A DNA stretch of 38,213 nt, taken from contig JADHTP010000003.1 in the NCBI GenBank assembly GCA_016784945.1, positions 1 to 38,213 on the forward strand. The letters are read 5' to 3'. A program made the position numbers and the translations under genes. This DNA comes from Deltaproteobacteria bacterium. Lineage in GTDB: Bacteria; Myxococcota_A; UBA9042; DTJE01. Of this stretch, positions 8,239 to 11,580 are shown piece after piece; the stretch's first letter is position 1, and every line of letters begins with the position of its first letter. The notes under the pieces are model-generated. The model was not told where the DNA came from, ran no database searches, and saw nothing but the letters and a program-made list of their open reading frames with translations.

Positions 8239-8348
8239 AGTCAATAGTCAATAGTTCATAGTCAATAGTCCGGATCTCGGGAGGGGACCTGGGACCTTGA
8301 TCGACTATCGACTATCGACTATCGACTATCGACTATCGACTATCGACT
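8239..8348. repeat. Opposed heptad arrays: AGTCAAT-type x4 and ATCGACT x7
   Basis: 8239-8266 AGTCAAT AGTCAAT AGTTCAT AGTCAAT; 8300-8348 seven perfect ATCGACT copies; the two arrays are imperfect reverse complements. Confidence 0.95.
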
Positions 8349-8365
8349 AACCCTTTTGCTAGAAT
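8336..8365 (+). promoter_or_regulatory. Candidate promoter: -35 TCGACT (within the heptad array), -10 TAGAAT
   Basis: TCGACT 8336-8341, 18-bp spacer, TAGAAT 8360-8365, upstream of ATG at 8393. Confidence 0.35.
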
Positions 8366-11112: not shown

Positions 11113-11126
11113 AGGCGATAGGCGAT
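11113..11126. repeat. Heptad repeat AGGCGAT x2
   Basis: AGGCGAT AGGCGAT in intergenic DNA. Confidence 0.55.
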
Positions 11127-11128
11127 AA

Positions 11129-11216
11129 GCCATCTTCGCAGGGCAAACGCATCTAATTCGTGGTCGTGCGTAGCTTCTGTTTCAACATTTTGATGCGTTT
11201 GCCATGGCCATCTTCG
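11129..11216. mobile_element. MITE-like mini element (68 bp, 11139-11206) with 15-bp TIRs and 10-bp flanking direct repeats
   Basis: GCCATCTTCG (11129-11138) / CAGGGCAAACGCATC ... GATGCGTTTGCCATG / GCCATCTTCG (11207-11216); TIRs 14/15 identical. Confidence 0.8.
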
Positions 11217-11223
11217 TCACACG

Positions 11224-11258
11224 GTAGACGACAGACGACAGACGACAGACGGCAGACG
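11224..11258. repeat. Heptad repeat RYAGACG x5
   Basis: GTAGACG ACAGACG ACAGACG ACAGACG GCAGACG. Confidence 0.9.
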
Positions 11259-11322: not shown

Positions 11323-11580
11323 CGGTTCCACGTGGTGGTCCTGGACAAGCTGACCTATGCTTTGCAACCTGGACAACCTGTCGGCCCTGACCCCGGAACA
11401 GAAATCACGCTTTTCCTTAGTCAAGGGCGACACCGGAGACCGCGACTGCGTGGACGGGGTTTTCGGGCAGCGGGACCTGCACGCGGTGGTCAATTTCGCG
11501 GCGGAGTCCCACGTGGACCGATCCATCGAAGACCACGAATAACGATTCGTGACCAACGTCAAACTGTTGACCCTCTTCGG
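11323..11580 (+). pseudogene. rfbB: Remnant of dTDP-glucose 4,6-dehydratase (RfbB) with frameshifts
   Basis: VVVLDKLTYA | NLDNLSALTPEQKSRFSLVKGDTGDRDCVDGVFGQRDLHAVVNFAAESHVDRSI | FVTNV split over frames; N-terminal Rossmann part and C-terminal two thirds missing. Confidence 0.8.

Follow-up and report, generated by a model that had tools for sequence, protein, structure and literature searches.

The window, a stretch of 38,213 nucleotides, is contig C216 of the source bin (2.73 Mb, 247 contigs, 68% complete). It contains a 68-bp intergenic element, and the question it raises is whether this element arrived by transposition and, if so, which transposase moved it and in what form. The element lies between divergent genes, with a peptidase C1-like gene on one side and an ORF without a Pfam match on the other. 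Read directly, it is bounded by 15-bp TIRs identical at 14 of 15 positions, the one mismatch being G/T at the third position from the outer end. Both TIRs directly abut 10-bp direct repeats of GCCATCTTCG, a word present at only these two places in the window. Just 38 bp separate the TIRs, leaving neither a passenger gene nor a transposase. The features are as follows.

11129..11138, + strand: left 10-bp target-site duplication (TSD) GCCATCTTCG, by direct reading
11139..11206, + strand: probable ISAs1-type MITE, 68 bp, internally deleted form, by direct reading and copy search
11139..11153, + strand: left TIR CAGGGCAAACGCATC, same letters as the ends of the ISAs1-family IS at locus L213
11154-11191: interior between the TIRs, 38 bp
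11162..11168, + strand: GGTCGTG, 7-bp direct repeat, collapse point from ~165 bp to 68 bp (L002 versus L009)
11192..11206, - strand: right TIR GATGCGTTTGCCATG, CATGGCAAACGCATC when read inward, 14/15 to the left TIR
11207..11216, + strand: right 10-bp TSD GCCATCTTCG, by direct reading

The original prediction of a perfect 10-bp duplication and 15-bp TIRs around 68 bp was exact in coordinates and letters on re-reading, and the flush 14/15 TIRs were likewise confirmed. An arrangement of this kind (a perfect 10-bp repeat flush with 14/15 TIRs, with the spacing anywhere from 40 to 600 bp) is expected by chance roughly 9e-7 times in 38 kb of sequence. The element could in principle be immobile, a hairpin that acts as a terminator or as a regulatory palindrome and happens to have a direct repeat next to it, and its position between divergent genes and its good fold as a single-stranded 68-mer (-14.1 kcal/mol, z = -4.1) would suit this. 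However, the chance expectation of ~1e-6, together with a genome-wide family carrying locus-specific 10-bp duplications, refutes it and leaves it practically no probability.

Heptamer tandem repeats (AGGCGAT / AGACGAC) occur near both sides of the element, at 11113-11127 and 11226-11258, and other family copies (L004, L009, L021) also lie in or near heptamer arrays. Just to the right, at 11330-11580, is an apparently broken remnant of an RmlB-like nucleotide-sugar dehydratase/epimerase gene, which matches PF16363 at 46 bits in a manual translation that follows a change of frame.

The family was defined with an 88-bp query (the element and its TSDs), the copies being retrieved and their ends located. 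Further copies in the source genome, as foreseen, were found at no fewer than 35 loci on many contigs, with flanks unrelated from locus to locus, so that the window element belongs to a short, multicopy, transposase-less family. Twenty-three copies are paired, with sizes of 68 bp (n = 4, at four unrelated sites), 74 bp (n = 2), 88 bp (n = 1), 155-200 bp (n = 15) and 492 bp (n = 1). Two remnants of 32 and 41 bp extend the series to 32-492 bp, and ten loci retain a single recognisable end. With the remnants counted in, most paired copies have a 10-bp TSD: it is perfect in 9 of 25 and matches at 8/10 or better in 16 of 25, in small and large size classes alike. At other lengths, the same 25 copies yield nothing at 80% or above for 6-9 or 12-13 bp, and a single 9/11 match. 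Flanks drawn from different loci match at 8/10 or better in only 6 of 2000 draws. Insertion by a cut staggered by 10 bp is therefore supported across the family and not at the window site alone. The exact right-end 23-mer, sought in named genomes, had no match outside the source genome.

The empty site in close relatives that the original prediction had looked to was not found. The only genome of the same genus (G001) conserves just the right-hand gene, at 76% identity, and is not syntenic on the left side, hence no empty site could be shown. Copies inside genes were also sought for a restored reading frame, with no convincing case; ORFs spanning copies were considered as disrupted genes and rejected, as they looked like leaders or antisense frames.

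The identity of the transposase is indicated by elements in other genomes. An 18-bp end pattern was searched in 378 genomes of the phylum. In G284, a 1255-bp element (L094) has CAGGGCAATCGCATC ends with one mismatch each and a transposase matching NF033564 (ISAs1 family) at 402.6 bits, as well as PF13808 and PF01609; at two other loci (L100 and L102), ISAs1-type genes are accompanied by comparable ends. The exact end, searched in named genomes, occurred in at least 118 stretches, the listed matches being largely from Nostoc and other cyanobacteria, Bacteroidota and Anaerolineae. The closest counterpart is a 1189-bp IS in a Chitinophagaceae MAG (L213), in which both 15-bp ends are identical to the left TIR of the window element, an ISAs1-type transposase (PF13808, PF01609) lies between them and a perfect 10-bp TSD, TGGGGGCAAG, surrounds the whole. 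Target duplications of the ISAs1 family are 8-10 bp long, and the 10 bp of the window element is the length seen in L213. In G042, an 831-bp stretch (L115, 1043-1873) has CAGGGC-like ends, shows a perfect 10-bp duplication, GCGTCGGGGC, and adjoins an ISAs1-type gene match; it is probably an ISAs1 element that has suffered a deletion.

A transposase gene between CAGGGCAAACGCATC ends, proposed as a check of the original prediction, thus exists in another organism and was not recovered from the source bin, where neither a PF13808 profile match nor a tblastn match to the L213 transposase was found. The same-genus G001 and 11 of 12 genomes of the same family or order (G002-G013) likewise yielded no ISAs1 transposase. 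Repeats often escape binning and the bin is 68% complete, so the missing gene is weak counter-evidence. It is what would be expected if a different DDE transposase family (IS4-like or other, also with ~10-bp TSDs) drove the elements and the likeness to ISAs1 ends were convergent. That reading is very improbable, however, given an autonomous ISAs1 element with identical 15-bp ends and the same TSD length (L213), the near-identical ends of L094 and the similar ends beside ISAs1-type genes at L100 and L102.

The larger copies point to what the family once carried. The 492-bp copy (L019) lies within a perfect TSD, TGGCTCGGGG, and its minus strand still codes for the N-terminal half of a protein of the four-helix-bundle (23S-rRNA-IVP) type. 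A 49-residue piece matches TIGR02436 at 27.1 bits (cut-off 24), and in a genome scan the locus matches PF05635 above the cut-off, at 36 bits. Further broken pieces of IVP genes lie at other family loci, and L010 at its right end has GGTCAAGGGG in common with L032 at its left end, as though two contigs each held part of one former IVP-bearing copy. The IVP gene is thus seen between ISAs1-type ends in the 492-bp copy and in split or truncated copies. All IVP copies found within the family are broken, and most family copies lack the gene.

Comparison of the size classes reveals how the short forms may have arisen. In the ~165-bp form, the sequences on either side of a ACATCGAG direct repeat have been brought together (L019 versus L023), and in the 68-bp form the junction falls at GGTCGTG, where the two sides overlap by 7 bp (L009 versus L002). 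These junctions support deletion between short direct repeats and fit two successive steps. L036, a 32-bp remnant that keeps a perfect TSD, GCCCCACCGA, shows that shrinkage in place occurs in the family. Since the 68-bp form can be derived in place from the ~165-bp form, the window copy may owe its size to a loss at its present site: a copy of ~165 bp or more would have inserted at 11129-11216 and lost its middle there by slippage between two GGTCGTG repeats, the 68-bp form never having moved as such. The junction exactly at a 7-bp direct repeat found in longer copies, the L036 remnant, which is probably too short to transpose, and the perfect TSDs across small and large size classes argue for this. 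On the other hand, the four 68-bp copies at four unrelated sites are as expected if the 68-bp form itself had spread, and shrinkage in place needs repeated identical deletions, though a fixed repeat pair makes such deletions likely. We give in-place loss a roughly even chance, and it refines the best explanation without excluding it. The footprint of transposition claimed originally stands, then, though the 68-bp form itself may not have been what moved.

Copies have also recombined. L025 (C244) and L026 (C104) have no TSD of their own. The 10 bp to the left of L025 recur unchanged to the right of L026, and those to the left of L026 to the right of L025, the product of a reciprocal exchange between elements located on different contigs. 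In Aeromonas, the same pattern has been described for inversions triggered by ISs, which leave target duplications in reciprocal arrangement (PMC5756416).

Taken together, the 68-bp stretch is very probably a non-autonomous, internally deleted ISAs1-type MITE. Its ancestor would be a larger cassette with a four-helix-bundle (23S-rRNA-IVP) gene between ISAs1-type ends. The ACATCGAG deletion would have removed the gene to give ~165 bp and the GGTCGTG deletion would then have given 68 bp; the two junctions are visible in the copies and we infer their order. An ISAs1-family (DDE) transposase would have inserted, in trans, a family member with ends of this type, cutting the target at points staggered by 10 bp; repair of these cuts would have produced the GCCATCTTCG duplication. 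We infer the enzyme and the staggered cut from the identity of ends and TSD with autonomous ISAs1 elements.

The origin of the passenger is suggested by its closest intact relative, in G026 (61% over 49 residues). This IVP gene has no ISAs1 ends within two mismatches and is bracketed by inverted CTCGTG/CACGAG hexamer arrays. Remains of such arrays persist in longer family copies, CGTGGT CGTGAT on the left and TTCACG TTCACG on the right. Read most simply, this suggests that an IVP gene, along with its arrays, came to lie between ISAs1-type ends. An intact, unrelated IVP gene of the source genome (contig C168) has no ISAs1 ends, and the other IVP loci checked for such ends gave no convincing pair: L182 (G033) has a weak single end without partner, CTGGGCGATCGCATC, and L144 (G021) a two-mismatch match.

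IVP genes are multicopy in several relatives (L139-L186), with 17 matches in G013, 8 in G033 and 7 in G009. This multiplicity would fit a role in the mobility machinery itself for the IVP protein that the large forms formerly encoded, as would older proposals, taken up in PMC4990558, that ORFs within IVSs promote mobility. We regard such a role as most unlikely, because the IVP copies found in the family are all broken, the gene is missing from most copies, MITEs with ISAs1 ends in other organisms gave no IVP match, and no convincing pair of such ends turned up at IVP loci outside the family.

In the relatives, the flanks of IVP genes are rich in 6- and 7-base tandem repeats, several pairs of them inverted. 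Periodic matches of at least 24/30 occur in 19 of 53 near flanks and, at the same loci, in 0 of 35 distal segments. This is a lead only, as the loci are not independent (some share a genome, and a few are counted twice) and the distal segments are often coding. Heptamers bracket the intact C168 gene (L058, ~245-295 and 700-736). Similar ones occur in the window at 8239-8349, where inverted arrays, (AGTCAAT)n then (ATCGACT)n, stand 30 bp apart with no gene between them, possibly a gene-less remnant of a C168-type IVP unit.

The family links an IVP/four-helix-bundle gene of unknown function to a DDE-transposon vehicle, so that a long-standing question, the means by which IVS-type genes spread, becomes testable within one family. 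Its decay stages of 492, ~165, 68 and 32 bp can be read alongside the direct repeats where the deletions occurred. It is conceivable, if rather doubtful, that ISAs1-type ends captured an IVP gene with its inverted hexamer arrays, spread as a transposase-less cassette and collapsed into MITEs, and that such capture could be one dispersal route for the IVP genes of 23S rRNA intervening sequences.

Among known systems, ISAs1-family ISs (NF033564; PF13808 and PF01609) have in common with the window element the 15-bp ends, identical in L213, and the 10-bp TSD, but the window element has no transposase and is 68 bp rather than ~1.2 kb long. Eight transposase-less elements from other phyla, in Nostoc, Gloeocapsa, Anaerolineae and Flavobacteriales (L195, L196, L198, L201, L212, L265 and two copies in L237) likewise have ends matching CAGGGCAAACGCATC at 12/15 or better and perfect 10-bp TSDs. 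They differ in their unrelated interiors, their length of 127-303 bp and the lack of any IVP match or remnant. Mobile insertion cassettes (MICs) consist of IS ends and a passenger gene without a transposase. Similarly, the 492-bp copy with its TSD and IVP remains, and the split copies, hold a non-transposase gene between IS ends, so that the large forms are of this kind and the gene-less window copy is not; the difference here is a four-helix-bundle/IVP passenger that is broken in every copy found. That MICs and MITEs are transposase-less IS derivatives that can be activated by a cognate transposase is established (PMC3129680). The intervening sequences of 23S rRNA with an S23p/IVP ORF in Coxiella and Leptospira (PMC4990558) encode the same protein family as the large-form passenger, and short tandem repeats adjoin the ORF in both, heptamers preceding the S23p ORF in Coxiella (PMC4990558) and hexamers in the window's family. 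The window copy itself, considered as such an intervening sequence, was rejected, since it lies between protein genes and not inside a 23S rRNA gene; it differs also in its DDE-type ends and TSD. The MITE family is new and the MITE/MIC kind is already established; the IVP passenger and the readable decay series go beyond the routine.
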